From IMG/VR virus record IMGVR_UViG_3300045971_000277, positions 37,897 through 101,896 of that record: a stretch of DNA of 64,000 nucleotides, one strand, 5' to 3'. The position numbers and the translations under genes were made by a program. The notes under the pieces were generated by a model. The model saw only the letters and a list, made by a program, of their open reading frames with translations, was not told where the DNA came from and did no database searches. Every line of letters begins with the position of its first letter. The stretch's first letter is position 1. Of this stretch, positions 32-29,070 are shown one piece after another. This DNA comes from a virus.

Positions 32-454
32 ATGCGTAAACTACTTTGGTTAGTTCTTCTATTACCCGTCGTTGCATCAGCCCAACAGGTGGCGAATCAA
101 GGTCAAGGTAGCCCATCGACTGTCGCGCCATGGCGTGTCACCGTTACGTCCCCCGGCGGTGTTGCTACGGCCAGCGGCGCTATCTTGGCTCCGGGCGTAC
201 CGACCAACGTGGCTGTTAGCACGTCGTCGGCCGCCATTACTGGTCTGACGGCTAAGTCGACCCTACGTCTGATCTGCACCGTCGACGTTCAGTATCGGGT
301 CGGCACGGGTGCCATTACGGCAGTGACGACCGACAATGACCTACCGGGCCGTGTTATTGAGTATATTGCGTTGCCAACCGGCATGACGTCGATTGCATTC
401 GTCACGACGTCCGGGTCAGGCACGTGTAAAGTAGCCGTGATTCCGTCGGCCTAA
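32..454 (+). CDS. Small exported beta-rich protein, unknown function
   Basis: The 140-residue product starts with a clear Sec signal peptide: two basic residues, a hydrophobic core (LLWLVLLLPVV) and a likely cleavage site ASA|QQ near residue 18. The mature part is about 120 residues, rich in Thr, Val, Ala and Gly with alternating hydrophobic residues, as in an immunoglobulin-like or jelly-roll beta domain; no catalytic motif is visible. Two cysteines (in LICTVD and GTCKVA) could pair in the periplasm. The gene ends 10 bases before the next exported protein, which has a strong AAAGGAG site, so the two are probably co-expressed. I do not recognise the family. It could be a small surface or virion-associated protein. 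Confidence 0.6.
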   Translation: MRKLLWLVLLLPVVASAQQVANQGQGSPSTVAPWRVTVTSPGGVATASGAILAPGVPTNVAVSTSSAAITGLTAKSTLRLICTVDVQYRVGTGAITAVTTDNDLPGRVIEYIALPTGMTSIAFVTTSGSGTCKVAVIPSA

Positions 455-464
455 AGGAGTTCAG

Positions 465-3400
465 ATGCGGCGTTTAGCCTTACTTATACTGCTGGTCGGT
501 ACGGCAGCGGCACAGACGTCACCGGAGTCGAACGCGCATCAGGGTGCGACGACGATGTCGAGCTACCCGGGCGGTCTGGGCCCGATATTTGAAGACGTGC
601 CGGATCTAAATCAGCACACGCCCGGCCTGATCACGCCCGATGCCAACGCTGTCGTCCATCTGGTGTGGGACGGTACTGCGCTTGTTAACCGCATCGGACC
701 CGCCTTCACGATGAACGGGACGGTGCCGCAGGTTCCGGCGCAGTGGTGGGGGCCGCCCGGGGCTGGGCCGTACAGCAATCTCAACTATTATTCGGTAACC
801 AGCGGGCTCCCGTCTTCTGGAGACTTCTCCGTTTGCGCAGTCTATTCGTGCCCCACCGCGATCCAGATCGACGCCTATGTAGTGGCGGTGAACGACAGCG
901 CACTGCAAAACGGCTGGGGGCTGGATATCCGCTGCGGTAGGCCCACGCCCGGCTCTGGTTTCTATACGTTTAACGCGGGTGCTGGTGCTGGTAGTGCCCC
1001 GCTTGGGAGCGGCCCCACTCTCGGTGCAGCGCATGTTACCTGTGCAGGTAAGTCTGGTGCGGCTGTGTATATCAAAGAGGACAACGGCGTAACCGTTACT
1101 GGAGCGGCTAGCACTTACGGCACCCCCGTCACACCGGTTAGAGTGGTCGGCAACCAGTCGAATAACATGCTGCCGTTCCTTGGCACCATCCACGAAGTCT
1201 ACGCCACCACCACACCCTTCAACGAGACCACCGTCGCCGCGCTGCAAGCCTCGGTGATGGCGAAGATCAACCAGCCCGCCACCGTACTGCACTGGACTGC
1301 TGAAGACTGGAACATGATCAGGTACGGGGAGCAGTTTGAGAATGCGGCGTGGGCGAACACCGGCCTTAATATGGGGCTCGCAGTTGATACTCAGACTGCC
1401 CCTGACGGTACGTTCACCGCTGACTACCTTTACAAGGCAACCAGCGCAGGTTCGACCTCGTTGGTGCAATTTGTCGGGGCGGTCCAGCCCGCTAACACCC
1501 CGCTGACCGTTTCCATCTACGCTCGCGCTTCAGTGACCAGCAGCCAGTTTGACCTCGGCCTATCTTGCGGCGGCTGGGTTGCTGGTGGTACCGGAAAAGT
1601 CGTGTCAGGCCCCGGTATCGTTACGATGGCGGCTGGTACGCTGGGTAGAGTTACCGGTCTGAGCCAGACGCAGTGGACTCGTATCGCTGTCAGCGCCCTC
1701 GCCCCCGGAGCACAGGCTTGCCAGTTTTACCTGTACCCGGATACGGCAGGCTCATCCACCGTAGGCGCAGGCGTCTACGTCTGGGGCGCCAGCATGACCC
1801 GCTCCACGGTCCCGCTGCCATACAAGAAGCCCAGCACGACCGGCGACACCTTCGTGATGCAGGGCGTGGTTCCGTACTCCAAGGTGTCTCCGATGATGCC
1901 GAACGGGTCGGGCGCGGGGCGCAGGGGTGTGGGCACGTTTACGACGGGGATCTACTTCGATGCTCCTAACAGTACGTTAGGTGAGTGGGCTGGCGACTGG
2001 AACGTGAGCGTAGCCTTCGTTCCGACCAGCTTTGCCGCCACACAGCTACTAGTTGGTAAGCCAAACAATTTGACGAGCGCAGGCTGGAAAATGTACGTGG
2101 ACACATCAGGCCGGTTGGTGTGTCAGCGCCACAATGGCGCATGGACCGGCGCTACCACTACCTCTGGCCCGGTGGTTATTGGGTCCGTCAACGTAGGGAC
2201 TTGCGGCCTTGCGTCAGGCGTACTGAACGCCAAGCTAAATGGCGGTGCTACAGTTACCGCAGCGTCTACCGGTGCGACAACATCGGCAGCTTCTTTTGCC
2301 TTTAAGGTTGGGGCGTCCGTTGACGGCAACGCTGGCACCACCACCAAGATCTACGAAGTCTGGGCCACCTCGACACCCTTCAACGAAGCCAACGTCGCCG
2401 CCATCCAAGACGCGGCCATGCGGAACGGCGACCCGACTCGGGCGCTGTTCCCAGACGACGCCAACACGGTCCTGCATCTTGTAGGAAACAGCTACGACGG
2501 CACGACTTGGCGGGCGCCGCAGGCCACGATGACGACGGTCGGCACCGTAGGTTATTCGGATGCCTTCGTGCCCAGCCCTGAGTTGCCGCGTGACAGCTAT
2601 GGGCCTTGGTCGGATACGAACTACCTGTCGCTGGGTTCTGGATCAGACGTTCTCGACACCACCGGGGATCGGTACGGGTGCGCGTTGTTCACGCCGACGA
2701 GTCTAAGCGCCGCAGGGTTTATTTTTATCGACGGACAGCCCAGCATCGCTGGACAAAATCTAAAGTTACAGATTGGTGGCGCGATCTCGTACTCCTCTTC
2801 AGTACCAACAGAGAAGGCCATCAACACTGGCAATTTGGCTCTATCCAATTCACCAAACGTGGCCTGTTACTGGAGATCGGGGAATACGATTGCGGCTAAG
2901 TTGAACGGGGGAACTTCGACAACGTTAGACGCCACCGCCCTAGAAGTTTCTGGGGTCTCTTATTTTGCAAAGCTGGGCAAGTACGAATCGGCTAGCTTCT
3001 CCTTCCCCGGCCAGATCCACGAATTCATCGCGGGCAACGGAGCGTGTCCGAACAACAACTGTGAGGCGTGGGCGACGGCTACGCAGCGCCGCGTGCTGGG
3101 TATGCTGACGGCACAGGGGCAAACGGTTGCAGTCACCCGAACGACTCCAGAAACCTACGAGATCCCGGGTACTGGTCAGACGCTCTGGACGGCACCCGCA
3201 GGTACGCCCGCCATCTCTGCTGATGGTATCGGGATCTTCAGGGCCACGACCAACTATGCGTTGCAGAGTGAGGCTTCGTGCGTAGGAAATCTGGTTCAGG
3301 CTCCTTGGGCCCTGACGGGAGTACCCGTACCGACCTGCACGACGGATACAGGTGTCGCGCCTAACGGGACGACCACGATGGACCTGTGGGACAACACCGC

Positions 3401-4343
3401 TAATGCCTCTTCCCGCCTAGGGTATACCGCCCCAACAGCGAACACCACCACGGGAACTGTAAGTACGTGGGCCCAGACAATGACTGGAACGGGCCCAACG
3501 CTGATCATTGATATGACGGCAGGCACCGCGTCTGGTTGCTCTTGTGGAGGGTCCGTTTGCATCCCCACCCCAGCCTCCACGTACTGCTCTGCTGCTTTTA
3601 GTGGGGTGGCTGTGCCAACACGCCTGTGGATTTCGGCAAGCACGAACGCCACTGTAACGGGCATCAGCGCCCAGTTTGTTCCGGGGCAATGGGGGACCTC
3701 CACGGGGTCAACCCGCTTCTGGGGCGTTCAGGTCGAGTCCTCCTCTCGCCCCACCCCCTACACGGGCGCGACCACGACAGCAGCAGTCACCCGCAACGCC
3801 GACAACATCACGATCCCGATCCAGATCACGCCCAGCAACACTCGCTGGTGCGCTGGCGGGACCTACACGCCCTACATGCGCGGGTGGGCGAACCCGGAAG
3901 GCACCATCAACACGCTCTGGGCCGCAGGCGCTTTTGATGCTGCCAACTCGGGTCGGCTTGAGATCGGAGGTACGAAGCTGGCGTACACGCTGGTGGATTA
4001 CCTCGGCACTCCCAAGCGACTGGAGTACGACGCCACCGCGATCACAACGGGCTCGCACAAGGTTCAGTCCTGTGTTGCAGACGGAAGAATGGCGCTCTAC
4101 GTCGATGATGTGCTGGTGGGGGCTGGCTACACCTTCGCGGCTCCTGACTGGCAGACGATCCGGCCCGGGGTCTGGCTCACACCTCCTACGACGGTGACTC
4201 TGGGAGCGCGTGTGAACCAGACCAACCACTTCGATGGTTATGTCAGGGACTTCAACTTCAAGCGCGACACGTTCTCGTCGGGCATGATCATGCAACTCGA
4301 TGCGGCGCTTGCGGTCTGGGCTCCATTCAACGGGGTAAACTAA
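465..4343 (+). CDS. Large exported LamG/lectin-like multidomain protein
   Basis: The 1292-residue product follows a strong ribosome binding site (AAAGGAG, 453-459) and begins with a signal peptide (MRRLALLILLVG, cleavage near AAA|QT). The rest is a chain of beta-sandwich modules. Segments with an 'EVYATTTPFNE' or 'EVWATSTPFNE' motif end concanavalin A/LamG-like domains, at about residues 245-260 and 630-650. Segments such as 'APDGTFTADYL' and 'RFWGVQVE' resemble carbohydrate-binding modules common in phage tail proteins. A last LamG-like domain covers about 1110-1290 (ALYVDDVLVG ... FDGYVRDFNFKRD). The architecture fits a glycan-binding adhesin or fibre. The Sec signal is odd for a virion part assembled in the cytoplasm. 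It is paralogous to the next gene. Role inferred: binding of surface polysaccharide. Confidence 0.65.
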   Translation: MRRLALLILLVGTAAAQTSPESNAHQGATTMSSYPGGLGPIFEDVPDLNQHTPGLITPDANAVVHLVWDGTALVNRIGPAFTMNGTVPQVPAQWWGPPGAGPYSNLNYYSVTSGLPSSGDFSVCAVYSCPTAIQIDAYVVAVNDSALQNGWGLDIRCGRPTPGSGFYTFNAGAGAGSAPLGSGPTLGAAHVTCAGKSGAAVYIKEDNGVTVTGAASTYGTPVTPVRVVGNQSNNMLPFLGTIHEVYATTTPFNETTVAALQASVMAKINQPATVLHWTAEDWNMIRYGEQFENAAWANTGLNMGLAVDTQTAPDGTFTADYLYKATSAGSTSLVQFVGAVQPANTPLTVSIYARASVTSSQFDLGLSCGGWVAGGTGKVVSGPGIVTMAAGTLGRVTGLSQTQWTRIAVSALAPGAQACQFYLYPDTAGSSTVGAGVYVWGASMTRSTVPLPYKKPSTTGDTFVMQGVVPYSKVSPMMPNGSGAGRRGVGTFTTGIYFDAPNSTLGEWAGDWNVSVAFVPTSFAATQLLVGKPNNLTSAGWKMYVDTSGRLVCQRHNGAWTGATTTSGPVVIGSVNVGTCGLASGVLNAKLNGGATVTAASTGATTSAASFAFKVGASVDGNAGTTTKIYEVWATSTPFNEANVAAIQDAAMRNGDPTRALFPDDANTVLHLVGNSYDGTTWRAPQATMTTVGTVGYSDAFVPSPELPRDSYGPWSDTNYLSLGSGSDVLDTTGDRYGCALFTPTSLSAAGFIFIDGQPSIAGQNLKLQIGGAISYSSSVPTEKAINTGNLALSNSPNVACYWRSGNTIAAKLNGGTSTTLDATALEVSGVSYFAKLGKYESASFSFPGQIHEFIAGNGACPNNNCEAWATATQRRVLGMLTAQGQTVAVTRTTPETYEIPGTGQTLWTAPAGTPAISADGIGIFRATTNYALQSEASCVGNLVQAPWALTGVPVPTCTTDTGVAPNGTTTMDLWDNTANASSRLGYTAPTANTTTGTVSTWAQTMTGTGPTLIIDMTAGTASGCSCGGSVCIPTPASTYCSAAFSGVAVPTRLWISASTNATVTGISAQFVPGQWGTSTGSTRFWGVQVESSSRPTPYTGATTTAAVTRNADNITIPIQITPSNTRWCAGGTYTPYMRGWANPEGTINTLWAAGAFDAANSGRLEIGGTKLAYTLVDYLGTPKRLEYDATAITTGSHKVQSCVADGRMALYVDDVLVGAGYTFAAPDWQTIRPGVWLTPPTTVTLGARVNQTNHFDGYVRDFNFKRDTFSSGMIMQLDAALAVWAPFNGVN

Positions 4344-4344
4344 C

Positions 4345-7300
4345 ATGAAGAAGCTACTGCTACTGGCTCTGCTGATCCCCGTGCAATCAATTGCGGACGG
4401 CGTCTTCACGGAAGATGCAAACGTGGTCCTGCATTGGGTGGCGGACGAGTGGAACATGATCAGGTTCCCTGAGGCGTTCACGGCTGGACAGTGGCCCAGT
4501 GGGACGGTTTCTGCGACGGTGACCGACAACTTCGCGGCGGCCCCGAACGGGACGATGACTGCCGCGAGGGTTGTCTGGGCTGCCGGTGCGCCTCGCTACG
4601 TGGTATCCGCCGCAGTAGTTGAGGGCTCCACGGTACACACGGCATCTATGTGGCTGAAGTCCAACACCGGAGCCAACCAAGTCTTGAGGCTGTTTTCCTG
4701 TGGGGCGCTGCCTCTGGTCGATACCACCGTCACCACAACTTGGCAGCGTTTCTCGGTTACTTGCACCACCACAGCTACCACCGGACTGAAGCAGGTGGTT
4801 GGGGTCTACTCGGCCACCACCAACGTCGCGGCCGACATTCTGATCTGGGGCGCTCAACTGGTCCGTGGCGACCGTGCGCTACCGTACAAGAGCCCTCCGG
4901 TGGCGAACCTGCTGGCAAGCCCGAAGGCAATTGGAACTTCTCCTTGGCTCTCTTCCGGGTGCGCTTTTGGTAACTGGAGCGCCTTGGTGGCTACGCAGAA
5001 TTCGGTGGCGTCCCCAGACGGTGTTGTCACGGCCACCAAGTTGGCTTTGGGCGTTACAGGGAATAGTTCTAACTCGGTGTGCCAAGTTCTTTCGGCCACC
5101 CCATCGGCTATCTACAAGTTAGGCGTGTGGCTGAAGGGCGATGGCACTCTCTCGTCCGTACAGATGGGGTTTAACACCGGTAACTCTGGGGTCTTGGTGT
5201 TAAACAACAGGCAGACGAAGACTTGTCCCCTCACGACTGCGTGGAGTTACTGCGAAGGCATCGGCTACACGTTCCCCGCCAGCGGGTCAAACCAGATCGA
5301 GCCATACATCCAGGTCGATTCCATCCAGCCGTCTGGGGCCGCCTTCTACGCTTGGGGAGCGACACTCACCCGCGCCGACCAGCAAGGCGACACGCTGGTG
5401 ATGAACGGCACGGTGCCTGTCTCCAACTCCACGCTGTTCCCCAGCGGGTACGGTACTGGACGTAGGGGGGTGGGGCCATATGCTGCGGGCGCACCCCTTT
5501 TTAATTCAGACATCCCGGTTGCCACCAATACGGCCGCCTTTACCGTATGTGTGGCTTACTACCCACAAAGAGATATTGCAAATAACGAATTACTAATAAC
5601 CACTGGGCAATACAACGTCAGTGGTTTTCAACTGTGGCATCGACCTGACCCTGCCGGGTATCAGGGGGTTTTCAACACCTCGACGGCGGGTCTAATAACG
5701 CAATCTATGGCAGCTATACCCTCTATGCGGGGACTGTCGGTGCTCTGTGGGGGCGTGAACGGCAGCAACCAGTACGTTAAAAGCAACAGCGGGTTGACTT
5801 ACACTACAGCTTCACCAAAAACAACTCCCGGAACTCTCACCAAGATTGGCATCGATGCCGGAGTCGGTAGTGGTGGTAGCACCCTCATTTACGAAGTCTA
5901 CGTCACCAACTCCGCGTGGAACGAAGCCACCGTGACGGCCCTGCAATCGGCTGCACTCGCACAGGGCGATCCCACGAAGCCGCTGTTCACGCCTGACGCC
6001 AACACCGTCCTGCACCTGAAGGGGAACGACTACACGGGCGGCAGTGTTTGGGCGGGCGACTACGGCAGCGTCACGAAAGTCGGAACCGTGGGGTACAGCG
6101 ACAGCTTCGTACCTCCGATCCAGAACCGTCTTGCCCGCCAAGCGTATGGTCCGTTGTCTTCATCGAATTACCTCTCTCTAGGTGCTGGTGCCGACGTTCT
6201 CGACTTTGCTGGCGACTTCACGGTGTGCGCCGTGGCTACGTCCCCAGTGGGACTTACCGCCCCTATTGTCGGATCTGGAAACTTTGGGGCTTCAGGTGCT
6301 GGGTGGGACATGGGCGTTACTTCGTCTTCCGGTTACATCAACACCTTTGCGACGGGGTCCACCATCACTGGTACGACCACCAACGCTCTGACTGTGCCGG
6401 GAGGCGGGCCTACCGTAGTTTGTGCAGGCCGGGCTGGTAGCACGCAGTACGTTAAGGCAAACGGTGGAACAACCGTATCGTCAGCGGGGGCAAAGACTAC
6501 CCCAGATACTACCACCCCCTCTTACATAGGTAAGCGTGGCGATGCTGGCGGTGGTTTCTTCTCTGGACAAGTTCTAGAAGTCTACGCCACCACCTCCGCA
6601 TGGAACGAAACGACCGTCAGCAACCTCCAGAAGAAGGCCCTCGGCATGATCCTGCCCACGGGTCAGACTCTTTCAGTCACCCGTGCTGGCCCGCAAACGG
6701 TTGCAGTCCCGACCGCTACTGGCCCTGCTGTCGTTACGGTTCCTGCGGGCGCTCCTGCCTTGGGTCCTGACGGGATCGAGGTGTACGGGACGAGGGTGAA
6801 TTCGATCCTGCAAAGCCAGACCATCGCTTCGGGTACCAACTACATCGCACCGTGGACAGCAAACCTGACCACCGTCACCGAAATCGCCGGGGGTCCAAGC
6901 GGATCTGGTTCATGGGCGGAAGTCACCTCCACTAACGTACAAGGCGGGACCGACGCAGGGACAGTCACCATCCCGTCCAACGCCGTCTACACGTTCTCTA
7001 TCTGGGCGTCGAAGTCGTCTGGCACCGGGTACGCCGGGTTGATGGGTATGACTTCCAACAACATAGCAGCATCGTCATGCTCTTGCGGGCGCAGCGATGG
7101 GGGTGCGTGTACGGCCCAGAACACGGGGCCTGCTGGTACTTCATACTGCTACTTCACCCTCCCAGACCTAGGGACCACTCCGATCCGTATGTGGCTTACG
7201 GTAACTGGGCCGTCGGCTGCTACGGCCCCCAGACTGCTCCTTCTGCCGGGGCAGTATCCGACCGCTGTCGGCACCACCCGTTTCTGGGGCGCACAAGTAG

Positions 7301-8352
7301 AAGCAGGCGTCACCACACCCGGCCCGTATTGTCCTACTACGACGGGTACTTGTACGACGCCCGCCACGGTAGCGACGGTTCCACTACCGGTGCTGGGGTA
7401 TGCGAACCTGTATTTCCAGAGCGAGACTCCCGCGTCATGGTCTCGTAAGTTCGGGGTGGTGAACACCGACAACCAAATTCTATCCCCGGTAGGCACCATG
7501 ACCGGCGGGCAGATTACGGAAGACGGCACGACGGCAGTCCATTACACAGACACGACCGTGACGACGGCCAACGCCCCCCACGCTTACTCGATATCACTCA
7601 AGGCTGGAACGAGGACTTGGGCCACCATCAACAAGGCGGGAGGGACGGCTGAGTATTGCTACATCAATCTGATGACCGGGGCGCTAGGGTCTTGTTCCCC
7701 GTCCTTTACCGGAAACGTGACCGTAACGGCGCAGCCCAACGGCTGGTGGAGGGTCAACGTGACCTACACACCTCCTGCTGGCGGGGTGTTCTGGGGCGTC
7801 GGTCTTGCCTCCTCAGATGGGGTGAATAGCTACACAGGCGACCCCAGCAAGTACATCTACGTCTGGGGTGCTCAACTCACCGCTACCCCCACCGTCCAGC
7901 CCTATGTCCCCACTACGTCCGCGATTGCATACGGCGGGAACAAGTGGTGCGTGGGGGTGACGGGGCAGCCGCCTGCTGGGATCTGGCCGGGAAGCGTTGG
8001 CGGAAACTATTTGATCAGCATCGGTGTCGCGGGTTTGGCTAACTCGTTTGGGCTTTACAGAGCAGCCGCCTCCGGGGCGGTGTGGGCGTACCTTTGGGAC
8101 TCCGGAGCGGTGCTCCGAAACACAGGGACAACGGCGACTATGAGTACCGGACCTCATCGGTTCGTCGCCCACAACTCTGCCGGTACCTTGACGCTCTACG
8201 CGGACGGGATAGCTACCACCTCGTCGGCTGCTGGGACAGCGTTGTTCAGCGCCACCTCCGCCACCCTATCGATGGGTTCCGGCGAGGGAGAAAAGATCAT
8301 CTCCAACCTCAAGATCGTCAACAACCCCAAGTCATGGCGTGAGTGTTTTTAG
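4345..8352 (+). CDS. Large exported LamG/lectin-like multidomain protein, paralogue of the upstream gene
   Basis: The 1335-residue product begins one base after the previous stop and has a signal peptide (MKKLLLLALLIPV, cleavage near SIA|DG). It repeats the modules of its neighbour in another order. 'VLHWVADEWNMIRF' starts a carbohydrate-binding-like domain, 'APNGTMTAARV' and 'WGAQLVRGDRALPYK' are module hallmarks, and 'EVYVTNSAWNEATV' and 'EVYATTSAWNETTV' close two LamG-like domains at about 510-530 and 740-760. 'NTVLHLKGNDY' is shared with the upstream protein, and a final LamG-like domain ends the chain. The two genes look like a duplication followed by module shuffling. Function inferred: glycan binding at the cell surface or virion surface. 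No enzyme active site was recognised. Confidence 0.65.
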   Translation: MKKLLLLALLIPVQSIADGVFTEDANVVLHWVADEWNMIRFPEAFTAGQWPSGTVSATVTDNFAAAPNGTMTAARVVWAAGAPRYVVSAAVVEGSTVHTASMWLKSNTGANQVLRLFSCGALPLVDTTVTTTWQRFSVTCTTTATTGLKQVVGVYSATTNVAADILIWGAQLVRGDRALPYKSPPVANLLASPKAIGTSPWLSSGCAFGNWSALVATQNSVASPDGVVTATKLALGVTGNSSNSVCQVLSATPSAIYKLGVWLKGDGTLSSVQMGFNTGNSGVLVLNNRQTKTCPLTTAWSYCEGIGYTFPASGSNQIEPYIQVDSIQPSGAAFYAWGATLTRADQQGDTLVMNGTVPVSNSTLFPSGYGTGRRGVGPYAAGAPLFNSDIPVATNTAAFTVCVAYYPQRDIANNELLITTGQYNVSGFQLWHRPDPAGYQGVFNTSTAGLITQSMAAIPSMRGLSVLCGGVNGSNQYVKSNSGLTYTTASPKTTPGTLTKIGIDAGVGSGGSTLIYEVYVTNSAWNEATVTALQSAALAQGDPTKPLFTPDANTVLHLKGNDYTGGSVWAGDYGSVTKVGTVGYSDSFVPPIQNRLARQAYGPLSSSNYLSLGAGADVLDFAGDFTVCAVATSPVGLTAPIVGSGNFGASGAGWDMGVTSSSGYINTFATGSTITGTTTNALTVPGGGPTVVCAGRAGSTQYVKANGGTTVSSAGAKTTPDTTTPSYIGKRGDAGGGFFSGQVLEVYATTSAWNETTVSNLQKKALGMILPTGQTLSVTRAGPQTVAVPTATGPAVVTVPAGAPALGPDGIEVYGTRVNSILQSQTIASGTNYIAPWTANLTTVTEIAGGPSGSGSWAEVTSTNVQGGTDAGTVTIPSNAVYTFSIWASKSSGTGYAGLMGMTSNNIAASSCSCGRSDGGACTAQNTGPAGTSYCYFTLPDLGTTPIRMWLTVTGPSAATAPRLLLLPGQYPTAVGTTRFWGAQVEAGVTTPGPYCPTTTGTCTTPATVATVPLPVLGYANLYFQSETPASWSRKFGVVNTDNQILSPVGTMTGGQITEDGTTAVHYTDTTVTTANAPHAYSISLKAGTRTWATINKAGGTAEYCYINLMTGALGSCSPSFTGNVTVTAQPNGWWRVNVTYTPPAGGVFWGVGLASSDGVNSYTGDPSKYIYVWGAQLTATPTVQPYVPTTSAIAYGGNKWCVGVTGQPPAGIWPGSVGGNYLISIGVAGLANSFGLYRAAASGAVWAYLWDSGAVLRNTGTTATMSTGPHRFVAHNSAGTLTLYADGIATTSSAAGTALFSATSATLSMGSGEGEKIISNLKIVNNPKSWRECF

Positions 8353-8354
8353 CC

Positions 8355-8783
8355 ATGAAGAAACTTCTCGGCATCCTCGTAGTGCTGCAACTCGCGTGTC
8401 TCCACCCGCCGCATGGATACAGCGTGTGGGGTGGCACGCCGGAACAGCAAGCCGCTGCGAACGACATGTGGGTGGTGGCGAAGGCCGTCACGGGCGACAC
8501 CTCCGGGGCCTTGTCAGGCGACCTCGGCGTCCGCTTCTCGCCCAACCAGTACGACCTGATCCAGTTTTGCCTTTACGACTTCAACACGGTCGCGGGCTGT
8601 ACGTATCGAAGTGGCGATGGCTTCGCCGTCATCGTGGAGATCCATCCGGATCAGTTGGTTACTGATACCGCTCTGGCCCACGAACTCTGCCATGTGGGCT
8701 ATGTGACAACTAACGAAGACCAAGTTAAAGCTTGTGCGGCTGAAGTTATAGCTGAATATGAGGCCCAATATGTCACTCCTTAG
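8355..8783 (+). CDS. Small exported HExxH metallopeptidase-like protein
   Basis: The product is about 142 residues from ATG 8355; an in-frame GTG at 8343 would add four residues and overlap the upstream stop. I prefer 8355 because it gives a standard signal peptide (MKKLLGILVVLQLA). The mature chain contains AHELCHVGY, a zinc-binding HExxH motif, followed some 20 residues later by a Glu-rich helix (AAEVIAEYEAQY) that could supply the third ligand. HExxH with little else is typical of short metallopeptidase-like phage proteins of unknown substrate. The residue before the Cys of LQLAC is Ala, but position -3 is Gln, so a lipoprotein signal is doubtful. It heads a run of overlapping small envelope genes, so a role in cell-wall or envelope remodelling is plausible but unproven. 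Confidence 0.55.
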   Translation: MKKLLGILVVLQLACLHPPHGYSVWGGTPEQQAAANDMWVVAKAVTGDTSGALSGDLGVRFSPNQYDLIQFCLYDFNTVAGCTYRSGDGFAVIVEIHPDQLVTDTALAHELCHVGYVTTNEDQVKACAAEVIAEYEAQYVTP

Positions 8784-9084
8784 CGATATCAAGCGTAACT
8801 GGGCCGCTCTAGGCGCCATTGGCGTCATCGTCGGCGGCACCTTCTATGCCCTAGACGCCCTCGATGCCCGTGCAGCCGAAGTAGCCAAAAAGGAGGTCCA
8901 AGCTACCATTAATGTTGAAATGGTGGCGGGGGCCAAGAAGGCTGCCCGGGAAGCCGTACAGGAAGCCATGGCGGAGCAGAAGGCCGCGATGAGCGCTATC
9001 GTCAAGGAAGCCGCCCGCGAAGTCGCCAAGGAAGTCGTCCGGGCGCAGCGGGCTGAAGATAAGGCCGCGAAAGCCAAGCCGTAA
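8770..9084 (+). CDS. Small membrane-anchored coiled-coil protein
   Basis: The start was set at ATG 8770 (product MSLLSDIKRN..., 104 residues), which overlaps the upstream stop by 14 bases; an ATG at 8758 is also in frame. One hydrophobic segment spans about residues 11-28 (WAALGAIGVIVGGTFYA). The remainder is a long, charged Ala/Glu/Lys helix with heptad character and a basic end (KAAKAKP). This is a membrane anchor with a coiled-coil rod. It lies in a cluster of overlapping single-TM proteins, so it could be part of a lysis or spanin-like complex or a membrane scaffold. No family was recognised. Confidence 0.55.
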   Translation: MSLLSDIKRNWAALGAIGVIVGGTFYALDALDARAAEVAKKEVQATINVEMVAGAKKAAREAVQEAMAEQKAAMSAIVKEAAREVAKEVVRAQRAEDKAAKAKP

Positions 9085-9091
9085 AGGAGAT

Positions 9092-9433
9092 ATGATGGAA
9101 CCTAAACTCTCAGATGACCATCTCGTAGATTCTAATGACTCTGGCTGGCGCAAGCTTGGATTGACGGCGGCCGGGCTAGCCCTAATCGCGTGGGGATACT
9201 GGATCACCCAATTCTCATCTATCTTACAGGGTCTCTATACGGTTTATATCGGTGCCGTTATCAGTCTCGTTACAATATTTATGGGCCTGCACATTGCCGA
9301 TAAGGTCCAAGGTGGCATTATAAATCTGAAGGCATACCCGCTGACTAACGGTGATACGCCTCCAGTCGTCACCCCACCTCCAGCCCCGGGAGCCGCCGAT
9401 GTCGTTCCTCCTCCGCCTCCTCCCGCTGCTTAA
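9092..9433 (+). CDS. Two-TM membrane protein, holin-like candidate
   Basis: The 113-residue product has an AAGGAG site immediately upstream; two adjacent ATG codons (9092 and 9095) can serve as start. There are two hydrophobic helices, at about residues 22-42 (LGLTAAGLALIAWGYWI) and 47-66 (VYIGAVISLVTIFMGL), separated by a short turn. A proline-rich C-terminus (PPVVTPPPAPG, ending PPPPPPAA) follows. Small size, two TM segments and nearness to other TM genes fit a class II holin, but this topology is not specific. The proline tail is read in one frame while the next gene starts in another (overlap 9399-9433). Confidence 0.5.
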   Translation: MMEPKLSDDHLVDSNDSGWRKLGLTAAGLALIAWGYWITQFSSILQGLYTVYIGAVISLVTIFMGLHIADKVQGGIINLKAYPLTNGDTPPVVTPPPAPGAADVVPPPPPPAA

Positions 9434-9794
9434 GTCCGGATTGACCCCACTCAAGGCTTGGTGGATCAGGCTTAACTGGAACGATAAGATTACGATCGTC
9501 ATCATTGTGGCGGTTGGCTGCATCGTCGGATTCCAGTACCTTAGTCTACGCCAACACAATCGAGAGATTGTTGAGCTTAAGGCTAAAGTGGCTGAGTTGG
9601 CCACCAAGGCTGATTTGGCTCGCATTGATGGGCGGATTGACGCAACTCACGGGCAGATTGAGTCGGTCAATACTTCAATTGGCAAGCTTGAAACCGACCT
9701 AGACAAGGTCCGTGGCGGCATAAAGCCACCGACGATTACTGGCATGTCGGAATCCGCTATTGTTGACGCGTTCAAGAAACTGGGTGCGCCATGA
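9399..9794 (+). CDS. Membrane-anchored coiled-coil protein
   Basis: ATG 9399 was chosen over 9351 because it has GGGAG seven bases upstream and overlaps the previous gene by only 35 bases. The product is 131 residues: an amphipathic N-terminus (MSFLLRLLPLLK), one TM helix at about 28-47 (ITIVIIVAVGCIVGFQYL), then a coiled coil (IVELKAKVAELATKADLARI... DLDKVRGG) and a short tail. The layout resembles an inner-membrane spanin subunit or a membrane tether. It overlaps the next gene by four bases (ATGA), which implies translational coupling. Confidence 0.5.
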   Translation: MSFLLRLLPLLKSGLTPLKAWWIRLNWNDKITIVIIVAVGCIVGFQYLSLRQHNREIVELKAKVAELATKADLARIDGRIDATHGQIESVNTSIGKLETDLDKVRGGIKPPTITGMSESAIVDAFKKLGAP

Positions 9795-10246
9795 AACGCC
9801 TCGTCGCTCTTCTTTTGCTTTTGCCGATGGCTTCGCTCGCCCAGACCCCATATGTAACACTAATACCGGAACTGAAGCTCCGGACGCAGTTCGCGCCCCA
9901 GGCTGTACAGGTCCTGGGCCGCCCCGGCGTATGGTTTCCAAATGATGACGCCGAGTATCTACTCAAGCTGCGTGTCGACACCGTGCCGTCCTTGTACAAC
10001 ACCGTGGTAGCGCAAGATGCACTGATTCAACAGTATCAGGAACGCGTACGGCTCTCTGATAATCTATTTAATCTAGAGCATCAGCGTGGGTTGAACCTAG
10101 AGAAGGCCAATCACGACCTCAATGGCTCGCTCCAGAAGTGTTTGGGTGAGCGTCCATGGTATCAGTCCACCACCTTTATGGTCGGCGTAGGCTTCGTCGC
10201 CGGAATGCTCGTCATGGGTGGCGCGGTCTGGCTAGGACGGAAGTAA
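9791..10246 (+). CDS. Exported or membrane coiled-coil protein with C-terminal TM, spanin-like candidate
   Basis: The 151-residue product has a signal peptide or signal anchor (MKRLVALLLLLPMASLA|QT), a mid-region with charged helices (about 70-120, SLYNTVVAQDALIQQY ... LEKANHDL) and a second hydrophobic helix near the C-terminus (about 128-148, VGVGFVAGMLVMGGAVWLG). If the signal is cleaved, the mature protein would be periplasmic and anchored by its C-terminus. It starts by ATGA overlap with the upstream gene and ends by overlap (TAATG) with the next, so it belongs to one translation unit. A lysis role is possible; no family was recognised. Confidence 0.5.
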   Translation: MKRLVALLLLLPMASLAQTPYVTLIPELKLRTQFAPQAVQVLGRPGVWFPNDDAEYLLKLRVDTVPSLYNTVVAQDALIQQYQERVRLSDNLFNLEHQRGLNLEKANHDLNGSLQKCLGERPWYQSTTFMVGVGFVAGMLVMGGAVWLGRK

Positions 10247-10476: not shown

Positions 10477-10477
10477 T

Positions 10478-10678: not shown

Positions 10679-10683
10679 TATCT

Positions 10684-16821: not shown

Positions 16822-16831
16822 AAAGGGTACG

Positions 16832-19211: not shown

Positions 19212-19214
19212 CGT

Positions 19215-22561: not shown

Positions 22562-22562
22562 C

Positions 22563-23759
22563 GTGGCGATTTCGGAAGACCTAAGCTTACGCACGAACAT
22601 ACCGACCAACCCGGATCAGCCGGGTCGGTTGCCGGGTCAACTTGGTCGGATGACCGAATTGGTCAAGAATGTGTTTGTGTACGAACTCCGTCATTATTTC
22701 GATAGTCAGACAAGCCCGGACCGGCTCGCTATGGTGCCGGTTATTCAGAAGTTCGCTTCAGATCTTCCCGCGCCCGACCGTGAACTTGATCCGCTCGAAA
22801 CTATTGTACGCGTTATCCGGAGCCATCCTGACATTACGGAACGCCTGCCCTATATCGGCATCGCCGCATCGGCTGGCAAGAACATGAAGCTGGCGATGAG
22901 TGGTAAGTACGTCGACGCGGTTCGCCATCTGCCACGTTTGGTCGCCGGTACCGGCGCATACGCGCCACCGGTTGGCACGCCTGCCGTGGTGCCGTCAGCG
23001 CTAGACCTAACACAGTTTGATGACAACGGCCAGCCGGGCGTGCCTGTAGATTGGCCTGCCCCGCTCGGTATGGCCCAGTATGGATTAGTTGGAGCCGATT
23101 ATGTTGAGTTCACGACGTCATTTGACGGCGCGGTGTATACTGATCATATTAGCTTCAACGATATATATCTTGGGGTGTCTCCGCAAACCCCACGGATGAT
23201 TGCGGACGCCATTAACAATCAGGCCCTATATTGTCAAGCTCATGTGGTGTTCTACAATAATGTACCAACGCTCGTAATCGAGCCCGGTGGCCCTTGTGGT
23301 CGTGGCACGTACGTGACGATTCAAAAGACGGCTGCGACGGCCAACTTTGACGCTTATATTAATCTGCCGATCCTACAGAAGTCCGCGCCATCTGATGAGT
23401 TTCCGACGTCTAACCGCTACCTTAACAGCATGTCGATGACGATCAGCATGGTTTTGGGTACGGACGGTGAGAACATCCGGGCGGAACTGACCGACTTGGT
23501 CCAGAACTTCTTCTGCTTTGTCATGGAAGACCGTCACTTCACCTTCTACGGTCGCTCATTCTTCCATGCCGACATTCCTGACGAGACCTACCAGATCCTA
23601 ATTCGTGATAATGAGATCACCCCAGTGGGCGAACAGGAAGTAGCACGGCAGGACGATCCGATGCGTAAGGTATATATCAATAAAGTTGATGTGCCGGTGC
23701 ATCTACTTTATTATGTCGACCGTAACGTGCAGGTCGGTGCGTATATGGGAGAACTATAA
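22563..23759 (+). CDS. Virion structural protein, unknown
   Basis: The 398-residue product starts at a GTG with AGTAGGA about eight bases upstream. The N-terminal third is helical (RMTELVKNVFVYELRHYF, DPLETIVRVIRSHPDI); the centre is beta-rich and proline-rich; the C-terminal third (FCFVMEDRHFTFYGRSFF ... YINKVDVPVHLLYYVDRNVQVG) is mixed. It lies in the structural operon and overlaps the next gene by one base. It resembles conserved myovirus virion proteins of unknown role; neck, completion or decoration are possible. Confidence 0.5.
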   Translation: MAISEDLSLRTNIPTNPDQPGRLPGQLGRMTELVKNVFVYELRHYFDSQTSPDRLAMVPVIQKFASDLPAPDRELDPLETIVRVIRSHPDITERLPYIGIAASAGKNMKLAMSGKYVDAVRHLPRLVAGTGAYAPPVGTPAVVPSALDLTQFDDNGQPGVPVDWPAPLGMAQYGLVGADYVEFTTSFDGAVYTDHISFNDIYLGVSPQTPRMIADAINNQALYCQAHVVFYNNVPTLVIEPGGPCGRGTYVTIQKTAATANFDAYINLPILQKSAPSDEFPTSNRYLNSMSMTISMVLGTDGENIRAELTDLVQNFFCFVMEDRHFTFYGRSFFHADIPDETYQILIRDNEITPVGEQEVARQDDPMRKVYINKVDVPVHLLYYVDRNVQVGAYMGEL

Positions 23760-24244
23760 TGGCTGTCACAACACCCATAACATTACCGACAACACGCACG
23801 GACCTACCCGGACGTAGTCTGCCTGATACCTCTACCCGTTGGGCCGCGGTCGAATGCAACGCTACGATTGGAGCGATTCGCGAGCGTATGTGCTGGCGCG
23901 GCCCGTGGGTTATCACACCGCAGTATGCGAGTAACGACGTCGTGACGTATAATAATAAGATATACGTCGCTTTTATGGCCAATGTCGGCAACGTTCCACC
24001 CGGCACTGCGTGGGACTTGCTCGCAGCTACGTCGGCTCCAGTCGACAATGAGGTTCCGGTCGGAACCGTAGACGGCGTCAATCCGACGTTCACATTGGCA
24101 GCCGTGCCGGCGACTGGCTCACTTCATTTATACTTGAACGGCGTTCGATTACGTCCGACTACCGACTATACTGCAACAGGATCTACCATTACGATGTTGA
24201 TGATACCACAGGTCGGGGATTGGCTTTATGCGGATTATCGTTAG
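23759..24244 (+). CDS. Fibre-associated protein with carbohydrate-binding-like motif
   Basis: The 161-residue product contains a WRGPWVITPQYASNDVV...YNNKIYVAF segment (about residues 46-75). This resembles the aromatic chitin/cellulose-binding CBM5/12-type module found in many phage fibre proteins. A second module follows (TVDGVNPTFTLAAVP ... LYLNGVRLRPTTDY, about 100-150), also frequent in fibres. No signal peptide is present. It overlaps the next gene by 17 bases. It is probably a virion protein binding glycans or a fibre adaptor. Confidence 0.55.
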   Translation: MAVTTPITLPTTRTDLPGRSLPDTSTRWAAVECNATIGAIRERMCWRGPWVITPQYASNDVVTYNNKIYVAFMANVGNVPPGTAWDLLAATSAPVDNEVPVGTVDGVNPTFTLAAVPATGSLHLYLNGVRLRPTTDYTATGSTITMLMIPQVGDWLYADYR

Positions 24245-25430
24245 TATCATTATAGCGTTAGTCTGGTCCACTGCGATGGCGGCTCCGACTGGCATTGGAG
24301 CGAACCAGATTCGTACGGCGCAGCCTAATGCGGTAGACATGAGTGGAGTCGCAGTGGCGGAAGGTAACTCACTGTCGGCTTCACGCGCGGATCACACGCA
24401 CCCAATCACCGGCATTCTGCAGCCTGCCCATGGTGGCACAGGTGTGAGCAACCTCAATTGTCCAGCTGGACAAGTGCTGACGTCAAATGGCTCAGTGTTT
24501 TCGTGTGTGGCTGCCGCAATATCCGCATACGCTAGGGCGTCAGTACCTGCGTGTGATGCAACTACGGCTGCACAAGAGATCCGTGTACACGATGCTGGCC
24601 AGTCTGATGAAACGTGGGTATGCATAAGGCGGGATACGACCTACGCTTGGTCGACGTATTCGATGGCTGCAAATTCAAATGCTGCTGTAATGGCTGACGG
24701 TACGTTGATAGCTACGGTAGGTGTAGTATGGACCTCTGCTCCATCAGGAGATGCCTGCGTTAACCAGCTCACGAGCGTAAGTACATTAGGCGCAGCTCAC
24801 TCAGGTGAGTGCGTTAATCCACGTACTGACGTTTATGGCACTTACACGTGGCGTAGCACCGCTATGTGGATGGCTGTGGGAGCTACAAATAAGTTTTACG
24901 GCGCTGAGATCAGACTAACAGGGTCAATCCCAGTTACATTTGGGCCAGCCTCTACGCCTGATAACTATCAGTGCGGCGCTGGCGGCGGTGAAGATGTATG
25001 CAATTATGACACACCGTATGATGTGGTGGGATACAGCAGAATGTATCCGTGCGCACTAAACTCTACTACATGTTGGATTGGTGCCACTACTTACACTGGA
25101 TGGCGTCACTATAGCGCGGTCAATACTGTATCGTCTAGAAAACTAATCATAAAGAGTAGCCCTATGACTGCTAGCGGGACGGTAATTTGGTCCAGTGCGG
25201 CAGGCGTTAACGCTATCACCTGGAATAAGGGCTGGAACTTGATACGTGCTGATAACGTTAATCCACCGGCAGGTATTAACGCCGACGACTACTATTGGGT
25301 GGTGATTAAGCGCTTCGATTTCGGTCCTTGGTATAGCTGCACTGGACCGATATGCTTACCTGCTAATAATGACAGTGAAGCATTGGTGAGCCATCCAGCC
25401 TCATGGGTAGTGACAAAGGTTCTTAGGTGA
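24228..25430 (+). CDS. Exported cysteine-rich fibre-like protein, paralogue 1
   Basis: The 400-residue product begins inside the upstream gene and has a signal peptide (MRIIVSIIIALVWSTAMA|AP). After cleavage it begins PTGIGANQIRTAQPNA, then VAEGNSLSASRADHTHPITG and HGGTGVSN, motifs typical of phage tail fibre shafts. About 20 cysteines, many in apparent pairs (LNCPAGQ/FSCVAA, DACVNQ/GECVNP, YSCTGPICLP), would form disulphides after export. The C-terminal signature is PAGINADDYYWVV. The first 170 residues are shared with the next two genes, the remainder is mostly unique. Role inferred: exported adhesin or surface-displayed fibre. An alternative is a virion fibre whose signal peptide has another function. 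Confidence 0.6.
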   Translation: MRIIVSIIIALVWSTAMAAPTGIGANQIRTAQPNAVDMSGVAVAEGNSLSASRADHTHPITGILQPAHGGTGVSNLNCPAGQVLTSNGSVFSCVAAAISAYARASVPACDATTAAQEIRVHDAGQSDETWVCIRRDTTYAWSTYSMAANSNAAVMADGTLIATVGVVWTSAPSGDACVNQLTSVSTLGAAHSGECVNPRTDVYGTYTWRSTAMWMAVGATNKFYGAEIRLTGSIPVTFGPASTPDNYQCGAGGGEDVCNYDTPYDVVGYSRMYPCALNSTTCWIGATTYTGWRHYSAVNTVSSRKLIIKSSPMTASGTVIWSSAAGVNAITWNKGWNLIRADNVNPPAGINADDYYWVVIKRFDFGPWYSCTGPICLPANNDSEALVSHPASWVVTKVLR

Positions 25431-25434
25431 AAAC

Positions 25435-26664
25435 GTGAAAAAACTTACCTTAGGTTTGCTATTAATCAGCGTAGCATTAGCCGCACCAACTGGTATCAAC
25501 ACTAACCAGATCAGGACGGCTCAGCCTAACGCGATCGACTTGGCCGCACCTTCAGTAGCCGAGGGTAACTCGCTAGGAGTGGCACGTTCCGATCATACCC
25601 ACTCTATTACAGGCGTACTCCCACAGTTGCATGGCGGTACAGGTAGCGCTAGCGTAGCATGTGGAGCAGGTCAGGTACTGACGTCGGATGGAACGACTTA
25701 CACATGTGTTAGCGCTGGATTGACGACGTATGCCAGAGCTTCCGTACCAGCATGCGACGGGTCAAAGATATCCAGCGAGATAGTTGTGCATGATGCAGGT
25801 CAGCCTGACGAGACTTGGGTGTGCGAGTTAACTGCAGCCGCTGCGTATATGTGGACGGTGTACGCTCAGGTGCCTAACTCTACAGTTCAAGTTATGAGCG
25901 GCAGCGGCATGCAGTTCGTTACTGTTGGAGGTACATTTACTCCTGCATATATGAATGGGCAGGTGTTCTGCAGCGTGTCGCTGACCTCGACACAGGCGGG
26001 CCCAGCTACTAGTTCTGGATGCCGTAGGGACACACCGGACTACTGCGGCGCAGGATGTACAGGATCCTTTAAGATAGGGGCGATGTATTTAGCTGTAGGC
26101 GCGACCTCACGCTTCACTCGCGTTAGACTGGAGTTGAGTGGCACGCCTTGGCCTATGCTTCAACCGTGTGTCGGGTCAACTCCAGCTAGCTGCACGGCTA
26201 ACATAACTAGCGGGCAAAGGGTGATGCAGTACGGCTCGCCTTACGCGTATGCTTCATGGCCCGTTGCATGGTCTAGTGGCGGGTCAGGCGCATCGCTTCA
26301 GATAGGAGTGCTGTGGGATACATACGGGAGCGTTTATAGCGTGCAGGTGGCTTCTCCCTACAATAAAGTATTCCAAACTAACCAATTCGTACGGTCAGGC
26401 GATTTGAAGATATCGCTTGATGCGGCTGCTAGGAATGCGTGGCTTCCTGGCTGGAATGCTTCACTCGGACCTGCCCCAACTGGCGTTAATGCGGCTAGCT
26501 ACTATTGGATGGTATACACTTGGGATGGCGCCTATGGTACCCCATGGACGAGCACTGTTAACGCGCCGTGGACTTACGGTGCAGGCTGGGGCGCTTGGGA
26601 AGCTGAGGCTCAGGCTCCTGTTACTAATTACACAGTCAGAGCTGCGGGAGTCTGGGATGATTAA
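25435..26664 (+). CDS. Exported cysteine-rich fibre-like protein, paralogue 2
   Basis: The 409-residue product starts at ATG 25435, five bases after the upstream stop, with a signal peptide (MKKLTLGLLLISVALA|AP). The N-terminal 160 residues align closely with the previous protein (PTGINTNQIRTAQPNA, VAEGNSLGVARSDHTH, HGGTGSAS, DETWVCEL). The C-terminal half differs, but the closing motif PTGVNAASYYWMV is kept. Cysteines are again numerous and paired (CSVSL, GCRRDTPDYCGAGC). It is a tandem duplicate with a diversified distal domain. Confidence 0.6.
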   Translation: MKKLTLGLLLISVALAAPTGINTNQIRTAQPNAIDLAAPSVAEGNSLGVARSDHTHSITGVLPQLHGGTGSASVACGAGQVLTSDGTTYTCVSAGLTTYARASVPACDGSKISSEIVVHDAGQPDETWVCELTAAAAYMWTVYAQVPNSTVQVMSGSGMQFVTVGGTFTPAYMNGQVFCSVSLTSTQAGPATSSGCRRDTPDYCGAGCTGSFKIGAMYLAVGATSRFTRVRLELSGTPWPMLQPCVGSTPASCTANITSGQRVMQYGSPYAYASWPVAWSSGGSGASLQIGVLWDTYGSVYSVQVASPYNKVFQTNQFVRSGDLKISLDAAARNAWLPGWNASLGPAPTGVNAASYYWMVYTWDGAYGTPWTSTVNAPWTYGAGWGAWEAEAQAPVTNYTVRAAGVWDD

Positions 26665-27865
26665 ACTGGCCTTAGCGCTACTCCTCACAGCGCCTACCGG
26701 CATCAATACGAACCAGATCAGGACGGCTCAGCCAAACGTATTAGATGTAACGGGAGTAACGGCAGCTGACGGTAACGTTTTAGATGTGGCGAGAGCCGAC
26801 CATGGTCACGCTGTGACGGGTACTCTACAACAGTCACACGGTGGTACGGGCGCTGGCAGCGTAGTTTGCCCAGCAGGTCAAGTGCTGACGTCAAGCGCAG
26901 GTGTAGTGTCATGCGTGAGTGCCGGTATCAGTGCATACGCTCGCGCCTCAGCCCCCACGTGTGATGCGTCGCAGGTGTCAAAAGAGATAAGGGTGCACGA
27001 CACAGGCCAAGCGGATGAGACATGGGTATGTGAGTTGCGCGATACGACTTACGCGTGGACCGTATACTCACAAGCACCTAATTCGACTGCTCAAGTAATG
27101 GCTGATGGTACAGGCTTAGTCACAGTTGGCGGGGTCGTAGCCAGTGTAGGCGATAGGTTTCTTAGCAGCGCAGTACCTGCCTACGGTGCACCAACTGCTA
27201 CGGTATTAGTAGATGCGCAGTATGGCTCACGTATGGCTTCATATTTCGCGGTAGGCTCAACTAAGAAGTTTTCGCGTATCTATTTAAACGTACGCAACCC
27301 GCCTAAGGACTCTACTTATTTATGCACAGGCGCTTCATATACGCATTTTAAGTACTTAGATGGTGGCTGGACACAGGGTGGACTTAATTGGACGCCTAGC
27401 ACATTAGAAGCGAGCAATGGTTGGTTTAATTACGGTGTTCCTGCGCTTCTGCAGCAAAGCGGTACCGTTCCTACATGCGGCAATGTGACTGTTACTAAAG
27501 CCACTACGGGTACATTTGGCTCTTCTACAGGTACTCCATGGGGTGCGGATACAGGTGTTACACAGTTTTTAACTTGGCGACCGTTCGGTGTTGATGGCTA
27601 TATCGAGTTCACAGGCGCTAACGTAAACTGGACTAAGGGATGGAGCTGTCTTGGTTACGGTAGCGGTTACGGTACTGCCGCACCCACAGGCATCAACGCA
27701 AACGATTATTACTGGGTCGTATTTAGCGTACTCACTGACTGGACTGTACACTCATGCTCAACCGACCCCACTGCAGGTACATGCGGTAGTTTTTTGGGTG
27801 GTAATGTGTACCGACGGGGTGACAACTACTCACCATTAGTAATCTACGCAACAAGTGTGGAATAG
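26657..27865 (+). CDS. Cysteine-rich fibre-like protein, paralogue 3
   Basis: ATG 26657 (overlapping the upstream stop by 8 bases) was chosen because it begins the shared N-terminus; the longer frame to 26417 runs through the upstream gene. The product is 402 residues. The hydrophobic start is short (MIKLALALLL) and leads straight into TAPTGINTNQIRTAQPN, so the signal peptide is shorter than in the two paralogues and its function is uncertain. Shared motifs are ARADHGHAVTG, HGGTGAGS, CPAGQVLTS, DETWVCEL, and PTGINANDYYWVV near the end. The middle is unique. Confidence 0.6.
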   Translation: MIKLALALLLTAPTGINTNQIRTAQPNVLDVTGVTAADGNVLDVARADHGHAVTGTLQQSHGGTGAGSVVCPAGQVLTSSAGVVSCVSAGISAYARASAPTCDASQVSKEIRVHDTGQADETWVCELRDTTYAWTVYSQAPNSTAQVMADGTGLVTVGGVVASVGDRFLSSAVPAYGAPTATVLVDAQYGSRMASYFAVGSTKKFSRIYLNVRNPPKDSTYLCTGASYTHFKYLDGGWTQGGLNWTPSTLEASNGWFNYGVPALLQQSGTVPTCGNVTVTKATTGTFGSSTGTPWGADTGVTQFLTWRPFGVDGYIEFTGANVNWTKGWSCLGYGSGYGTAAPTGINANDYYWVVFSVLTDWTVHSCSTDPTAGTCGSFLGGNVYRRGDNYSPLVIYATSVE

Positions 27866-27873
27866 GGGATAGG

Positions 27874-29070
27874 ATGAGTAAACTTATTTTAATTGTGCTT
27901 CTTTTCGGTATCGCGCTGGCCGATCAAGGGCCGCCCGTATACCAAGCCACTGGAACCGTACCGGGTACCGGCATTGCCTGCGACGGTAATCGGGTTCAGT
28001 TTGAAACTGCGACGGGTATTGGATGGGGTTGCGTTAGCGGAGCGTGGAAGAAGCTGAACGACCCCACCGCTAGCTTCTTACTAAACTACTCCAATCCAGC
28101 GTATCCTAATGCTACGGCTGTATCTAGTTTAGCTACCGGGTTGCTACTGAATACTCAGTACATTGGCATAAGCAGCACTGTCGCATTACCACTATCAGTA
28201 GCCAACGGTGGTACGGGCTCGACAACCGCAGGCGCTACGACTCAGGTATTGTTCAACGACGTTGGTGTGATTAACGGCGACGCGGGTCTTACTTACGACA
28301 AGACCAACGATACGCTAACCTTCGGGACCGCAAACGGCACGGACGCTGTAAAATTCACCACGGCTGGGGCCCGTCTTCGGCTGTCCTCGGGCGGCACAAG
28401 TGACTACCTGTACGGTGATGGAGCGTTTCGCCTCCTGACTCCTGGCATCCTCAAGCCGGCTCAGATTGAGTCCAATGCCGGGACAGCCACCTTCCTGTTT
28501 CACGGGCTCTACGCCACTACGCCTTTCGTAACTCCCGTGTGGCAGTTCGACAATTCCTACTACGGGAGTGGAGTGTTATTCTCCATCCTCGACGGCCCAA
28601 GCGGAAGTGGGACTACGAAGGTGGCCTATGAAATCAACACCAGCCGCACCGGGCCGGGCCCGATCCAACATACGTTTGGAGTCACAAACAGCACTGCATC
28701 TATTCAAGCTAACGCTATTATAACTCAAGGTAGCACGGCGGGGACGGCCAAACTAACGCTAGACGAGGTGTTCTCGGGTCGACTTGAGGGTCGTGATGGT
28801 ACCATAAACTACGCGCCTCTTATCGGTACCAGTTCAACAGCTGCGACATCCACTAGTCTCGTTACGCAGTTTTACAGGAGTGGCGACCTAAAGGTGTCAG
28901 TTTGCGCGGTATTCGCCGATGGACATACTTCATGTTCTGGGCCACTCGCTGCTGTGCCCAGCACAGCAACTACAGCGTGCACTGCTGGACAGATTGCTGC
29001 CGACGTGACTTATTTATATATCTGCTACGCTACCAACACATGGCGTCGTGTGGCTACCGCTACGTGGTAG
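27874..29070 (+). CDS. Exported tail-fibre-like protein
   Basis: The 398-residue product has a signal peptide (MSKLILIVLLFGIALA|DQ) and GGGGATAGG upstream. The body contains fibre shaft motifs: VANGGTGSTTAGATTQ and GDAGLTYDKTNDTLTFG (about residues 109-150). It ends with CTAGQIAADVTYLYICYATNTWRRVA, a C-terminal signature common in phage fibre and tail-tip proteins. It is not a close paralogue of the three genes before it but shares their export signal. It is the last gene before a 111-base gap and the sheath gene. Confidence 0.6.
   Translation: MSKLILIVLLFGIALADQGPPVYQATGTVPGTGIACDGNRVQFETATGIGWGCVSGAWKKLNDPTASFLLNYSNPAYPNATAVSSLATGLLLNTQYIGISSTVALPLSVANGGTGSTTAGATTQVLFNDVGVINGDAGLTYDKTNDTLTFGTANGTDAVKFTTAGARLRLSSGGTSDYLYGDGAFRLLTPGILKPAQIESNAGTATFLFHGLYATTPFVTPVWQFDNSYYGSGVLFSILDGPSGSGTTKVAYEINTSRTGPGPIQHTFGVTNSTASIQANAIITQGSTAGTAKLTLDEVFSGRLEGRDGTINYAPLIGTSSTAATSTSLVTQFYRSGDLKVSVCAVFADGHTSCSGPLAAVPSTATTACTAGQIAADVTYLYICYATNTWRRVATATW

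Follow-up and report, generated by a model that had tools for sequence, protein, structure and literature searches.

The window analysed here is a stretch of 64,000 nucleotides of viral DNA, bases 37897–101896 of a virus record 101,896 bases long (IMG/VR record IMGVR_UViG_3300045971_000277), and its gene content is that of a contractile-tailed phage. Two groups of genes within it, termed island 1 and island 2 and named, like all genes below, by their first position, encode proteins of the fibre or head-spike type that begin with signal-peptide-like leaders, and both groups are insertions relative to related phages. The nearest named relative is Virus Rctr197k, from a denitrifying anaerobic methane-oxidizing (DAMO) enrichment (major capsid protein at 69–70%, sheath at 46.6%), which has been placed near the PaBG group (PMC7412058). 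Scans for close relatives with the single proteins 4345 and 29182 gave no match, but alignments did find relatives. In a host search the fibre family was not found in the genome collection and the capsid alignment matched only two contigs of metagenome-assembled genomes (MAGs) with doubtful binning; we therefore name no host. One of the group's IMG/VR phage contigs agrees in length and locus coordinates with QMZE01000009.1, which is filed as an Archaeoglobales MAG (L056 / L093), a coincidence that may reflect doubtful binning or an unexpected host.

Two islands of fibre-type genes

Island 1 spans positions 32–8783 and is inserted between the head genes and the lysis cassette in an otherwise conserved gene order (Table 1). 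The distance from the homologue of an upstream head gene (L001:16666) to the homologue of 17682 is 18.1 kb here, compared with 1.7–7.1 kb in 47 loci, some of which come from the same virus; the ordinary fibre gene 10726 accounts for some of the excess. The G+C content of positions 1–8000 is 0.59–0.61, as against 0.46–0.58 elsewhere. The two giant proteins of the island, 465 and 4345, are paralogues at 33%, and both match the tail-protein family phrog_5939 (8e-11 and 1.8e-19, respectively). Protein 465 contains three aligned repeats of a jelly-roll-like domain and had no match in a sequence search of the PDB; the repeat shared by 465 and 4345 was modelled poorly (predicted local distance difference test, pLDDT, 51), and its best fold matches, lectin-like jelly rolls with a template-modelling score of ~0.35, are only a hint of such a fold. 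Residues 1029–1194 of 4345 (166 residues) match the head spike fiber Rcc01080 of the Rhodobacter capsulatus gene transfer agent (RcGTA; PDB 6tb9_F3, chain residues 97–267, E 8e-20), a homology found in 4345 only. Protein 32 could not be aligned with confidence to the small signal-bearing proteins at the same place in two related phages (L071:15769 and Rctr197k 10126), and its weak matches to FimH (E 0.05–0.2) were rejected as chance.

The fibre-type genes of island 2, 24228–29070, lie directly before the sheath gene. The gap between the homologue of 22563 and the sheath is 5.4 kb here, compared with 59–216 bp in 18 of 19 loci; in the nineteenth, L019, extrapolation gave an overlap, and the open reading frames (ORFs) are 76 bp apart. 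Genes 24228, 25435 and 26657 are paralogues at 41–44% with a conserved mature start, APTGI(N/G), behind leaders that vary in length and sequence; four cysteines in the N-terminal part are conserved and are also present in a truncated homologue, L035, and the structure model of this family is unusable (pLDDT 34). The fourth protein, 27874, matches the tail family phrog_17312 (2e-9), and its C-terminal tip is found in the tail fibres of 112 phage records; the tips of fibres or depolymerases of Klebsiella, Escherichia and Synechococcus phages (e.g. K64-1 S2-6) are 57–68% identical to its C-terminal 38–51 residues.

Table 1. Genes of the two islands, their borders and the ordinary fibres used for comparison (^, predicted cleavage; scores from the scorer described below)
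Position	Strand	Product	Leader (score)	Cys	Remarks
32..454	+	140 aa, predicted beta-rich	MRKLLWLVLLLPVVASA^QQ (8.35)	2 in mature part	island 1
465..4343	+	1292 aa, giant, fibre/lectin type	MRRLALLILLVGTAAA^QT (9.18)	20	island 1
4345..8352	+	1335 aa, giant, paralogue of 465	MKKLLLLALLIPVQSIA^DG (8.07)	20	island 1
8355..8783	+	142 aa, HExxH (AHELCHVGY)	signal or lipoprotein-like (5.42)	4 in mature part	island 1
8770..10476	+	lysis-side cassette			8770 (one transmembrane segment), 9092 (two), 9399, 9791, 10237 (one); topology by eye
9791..10246	+	coiled coil, WYxS motif, C-terminal glycine-rich transmembrane segment	MKRLVALLLLLPMASLA^QT (8.0)		not a fibre
10726..16050	+	ordinary fibre, 1774 aa	none	1	comparison
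22563..23759	+	conserved structural protein			left border of island 2; directly precedes sheath in 19/19 relatives
23759..24244	+	161 aa, fibre-like	none		start of island 2; weak CBM_5_12 and tail-fibre matches
24228..25430	+	400 aa, fibre-like	MRIIVSIIIALVWSTAMA^APTG (7.85)	12	island 2
25435..26664	+	409 aa, paralogue of 24228	MKKLTLGLLLISVALA^APTG (7.47)	10	island 2; GTG start
26657..27865	+	402 aa, paralogue of 24228	MIKLALALLLTA^PTG, shortened (3.77)	9	island 2
27874..29070	+	398 aa, fibre-like	MSKLILIVLLFGIALA^DQ (8.9)		island 2; C-terminus homologous to the tips of tail fibres
29182..31755	+	tail sheath			right border of island 2; named from size, place and following tube/baseplate-like genes
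47033..52006	+	ordinary fibre, 1657 aa	none	20	comparison

Leaders, homologues and cysteines

The sequence-only reading had placed signal peptides in the genes at 32, 465, 4345, 8355, 9791, 24228, 25435 and 27874, with a short one at 26657, and scoring agrees with it. With a home-made scorer (not SignalP) based on the charge of the n-region, an 8-residue h-region and the cleavage residues at −3/−1, 58 genes were scored (47 in the window and 11 just upstream). Seven of them (32, 465, 4345, 9791, 24228, 25435 and 27874) reach 7.47–9.18; 8355 (5.42), 8770 with its one transmembrane segment (4.65) and the short leader of 26657 (3.77) are intermediate, and the remaining 48 score 1.83 or less or have no candidate. 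The ordinary fibres 10726 (−10.9) and 47033 (no candidate) are signal-free by the same scorer, as had been claimed for them. A positive n-region containing Lys or Arg, a continuous hydrophobic core of at least eight residues and small residues at −3/−1, with A-x-A sites, as required for Sec export and signal peptidase I, are found in the seven genes, with the leader of 26657 being weak and that of 8355 atypical. The scores are as high as those of real Escherichia coli signals: in a control of 39 genes of strain K-12, with classes assigned from annotation and recall, nine exported proteins or lipoproteins scored 5.0–8.1, nine membrane proteins −3.2 to 5.3 and 21 others at most 0.35. None of 2435 shuffled phage N-termini reaches 7.4 and three reach 6.5, a value that is reached by none of 3691 internal methionines taken as starts; a chance origin of the leaders is excluded. 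A frameshift or start-site artefact was rejected because the leaders sit directly behind start codons in eight or nine separate genes. The leaders are very probably Sec signals. The Q rule of Bacteroidetes (PMC10367356), prompted by Gln at +1 in 32, 465 and 9791, was not used because other +1 residues occur in four of the seven strong leaders.

In 104 related or fetched loci, a score of at least 5.5 is found in two of 359 distinct ORFs of at least 350 aa, compared with five of 19 in the window; the two are a giant protein of L071 and an upstream start of the L117 capsid ORF, the latter taken as an artefact. The four homologues of 4345 examined in named phages (six records, one a duplicate and one left out) have no signal, nor has any of 15 viral-contig ORFs homologous to the fibre modules, including L035, some of these ORFs being incomplete. 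For the tip of 27874, the survey covered 80 loci, the best of 522, and 71 of 73 complete ORFs are without a signal, as are, by eye, the three N-termini looked at among the Klebsiella, Escherichia and Synechococcus phage proteins. The exceptions, in which a signal-bearing fibre carries a 27874-type tip, are L161 and L180, with L205 being weaker; they belong to other, unrelated phages, and therefore signal-bearing fibres arise elsewhere too. A literature search for signal-bearing phage fibres found no description by title or abstract, which is not proof of absence.

Similar arrangements are found next to the head genes of two related phages. L071 (IMG/VR contig 3300009709_000003) encodes, right after the head gene, signal-bearing proteins of 155 aa (score 7.28) and 1957 aa (6.02), the larger of which has YadA-head-like repeats, and Rctr197k has proteins of 198 aa (8.07) and 690 aa (4.98, a borderline leader) at the same head-side place. 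The 690 aa protein has a match in a tail-fibre family (5e-22); its GQSN and DGLH we take to be the motifs of an SGNH esterase. Both phages resemble the window in a major capsid protein at 69–70% and in having, next to head genes, one small and one large protein with a signal or a signal-like leader, whereas their mature parts are different and they have no island 2. Such a pair was not seen in the other relatives examined (47 loci, of which 33 extend at least 10 kb downstream of the capsid gene).

The signal-bearing mature parts contain 18.6 cysteines per 1000 residues, compared with 7.2 in the other window genes counted. In 27874 an extra cysteine lies 15 residues before the conserved tip cysteine, at a position that is glycine in 80 of 80 viral tips and in four of four named phages; the Klebsiella, Escherichia and Synechococcus tips have this glycine. 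Less decisively than the leaders, paired cysteines would fit folding outside the cytoplasm; the cysteine count is even in ten of 12 proteins (from the window, L071 and Rctr197k, with 9791 left out), which lends weak support.

Lysis-side and other neighbouring genes

Homologue searches found none for 8355, and from its motif this protein is possibly a phage metallopeptidase without known relatives. In the adjoining cassette, 9399 has a transmembrane segment and a coiled coil and weakly matches the Rz-like spanin family phrog_739 (E 0.003). The family of 9791 could be aligned from nine phages. Most members have a signal, and the family shows a coiled coil, a WYxSP-like motif and a membrane segment at the C-terminus, its genes lying among small membrane genes; the homologue in Rctr197k has no signal at its annotated start. 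The leader of 9791 is of the same type as those of the fibre-type genes, and its topology needs export. Gene 9791 encodes a core lysis-side protein, common, with its signal, to many relatives without exported fibres. The earlier proposal that most mature parts are fibres or lectins thus holds for 465, 4345, 24228, 25435, 26657 and 27874 and fails for 9791 and 8355, with 32 being a small protein.

Between the fibre 10726 and the head-completion genes, positions 16117–17398 encode a methyltransferase (Methyltransf_11) together with a protein of 234 aa, perhaps for surface or glycan modification. A free-standing HNH endonuclease gene lies among the structural genes at 18579–19211; genes 20295 and 52529 (− strand) resemble it, with no Pfam match for either. 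The DNA polymerase III alpha gene (60056–64000, − strand) contains an intein-like insert (Pfam Intein_splicing, 2.5e-12), inside which an HNH endonuclease ORF (61295–62359, + strand) runs antisense, both frames being open. Intein-like inserts with LAGLIDADG domains are also found in two long head-region genes, L001:1356-4901 and L001:5110-9474, one of which, to judge by its size and position, is probably the portal.

Free adhesins or parts of the virion

The reading that we consider to be, if only slightly, the probable one is that two accessory islands of fibre- or head-spike-type, putatively glycan-binding proteins were given Sec signal peptides and that these proteins are exported and freed at lysis as adhesins. 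Their modules are shared with virion fibres (the tail-protein families phrog_5939 and phrog_17312), and they carry the export signal that ordinary tail fibres are without; the RcGTA fibre to which the end of 4345 is homologous binds capsule (PMC7296036). The second, adhesin-like set proposed by the sequence-only reading is retained for these proteins, whose fibre or lectin modules are homologous to signal-free virion fibres, and has to give up 9791 as a core lysis-side protein and 8355 with its HExxH motif. We infer that the proteins would use the host Sec pathway for export, lose their leaders to signal peptidase I and fold with disulfides outside the cytoplasm, and that, if the host has two membranes, they would be held in the periplasm until lysis; on release they may bind to host surface polysaccharide, so that progeny would not be captured by debris or by already infected cells. 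Phages of Porphyromonas gingivalis also have proteins with Sec signals adapted to host export (PMC10367356); these were reported as being of unknown function and not as fibre-type islands.

Several observations weigh against export and release. In RcGTA, a hydrophobic N-terminus can anchor the head fibre to its base (PMC7296036), and the virion of phage Milano is rich in disulfides (PMC10811340). The non-exported fibre 47033 holds 20 cysteines, and the count is odd (9) in 26657 and in the L071 giant. Island 2 is in none of the relatives, the only homologue found being the truncated L035 with a hydrophobic, uncharged N-terminus, and the compartment that is reached would depend on the host.

It is unlikely, though the best of the alternatives, that the small and large signal-bearing proteins are the base and the fibre of a head spike, which would fold and associate with each other outside the cytoplasm and attach to capsids only after lysis; we know of no case of such docking in tailed phages, which counts against it. 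In the window and in L071, a small and a large signal-bearing protein do lie beside the head genes, as in Rctr197k with its borderline second leader, and the RcGTA head spike is also a pair of base (Rcc01079) and fibre (Rcc01080) (PMC7296036), the latter resembling the end of 4345. However, a sequence search of the PDB detected no similarity of 32 to the RcGTA base, and island 2 sits in the tail module. The likeness of 4345 to Rcc01080 consists of its terminal-domain homology and its location in the head module; Rcc01080 has 325 aa and is in the virion, whereas the protein here exceeds 1300 aa and its leader is charged and of the cleavable type. A whole class of spikes that are Sec-exported, disulfide-folded in the periplasm and docked on finished capsids when lysis mixes the compartments seems quite unlikely.

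Just as slim is the chance that the leaders are not signals but virion anchors, like residues 2–10 of the RcGTA head fibre (IALGLGLGL), which plug the pentameric spike base (PMC7296036). This precedent gains from the homology of 4345 to that fibre and from the start of 26657, MIKLALALLL, with its alternating I2-L4-L6-L8-L10, but 26657 shares the alternating pattern only: the RcGTA plug of Ile/Leu and Gly is uncharged, whereas every window leader has Lys or Arg at position 2 or 3. The plug is disfavoured because of this charged n-region, the A-x-A sites, which lie at the right distance, and a leader length that varies in front of a conserved mature start; the same type of leader also occurs on the membrane protein 9791.

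An action of the exported proteins in the periplasm or cell wall, aiding lysis or altering the envelope before it, is very doubtful: island 1 adjoins the lysis cassette, the HExxH protein 8355 carries a signal and 9791 is lysis-side, but the mature parts are fibre or lectin modules, no wall hydrolase was recognised in the searches, and most relatives have the lysis genes and no islands of this kind. In a two-membrane host, a Sec signal by itself takes a protein only as far as the periplasm, so a coat on the cell surface before lysis would call for an additional step. Small phage-encoded exported lipoproteins of superinfection exclusion, such as T5 Llp and phi80/N15 Cor, act at the envelope and are marked by a lipobox with an acylated cysteine; no lipobox or outer-membrane anchor is seen on the fibres here, and the leader end of 8355, LQLAC, is not a canonical lipobox. 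The earlier proposal of a coat on the infected cell that blocks receptors against superinfection is accordingly the least probable, even with modules of a glycan-binding type and a report that free phage adhesin can block adsorption (PMC12946066).

The assumption is that fibres are assembled onto the virion within the cytoplasm. Two related phages have arrangements similar to those of the window, and two or three unrelated contigs have signal-bearing fibres in another architecture. A 2026 preprint states that its authors know of no phage-encoded soluble depolymerase that is specific to the biofilm matrix (PMC13420450); the SGNH-type protein of Rctr197k, if exported, would be a candidate for such a biofilm-matrix depolymerase-like agent. 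If the island proteins are exported, they would form a second adhesin set that never needs to enter the virus particle, and fibre islands with export signals suggest that phages make use of free, exported adhesins as well, or complete their virions outside the cytoplasm.

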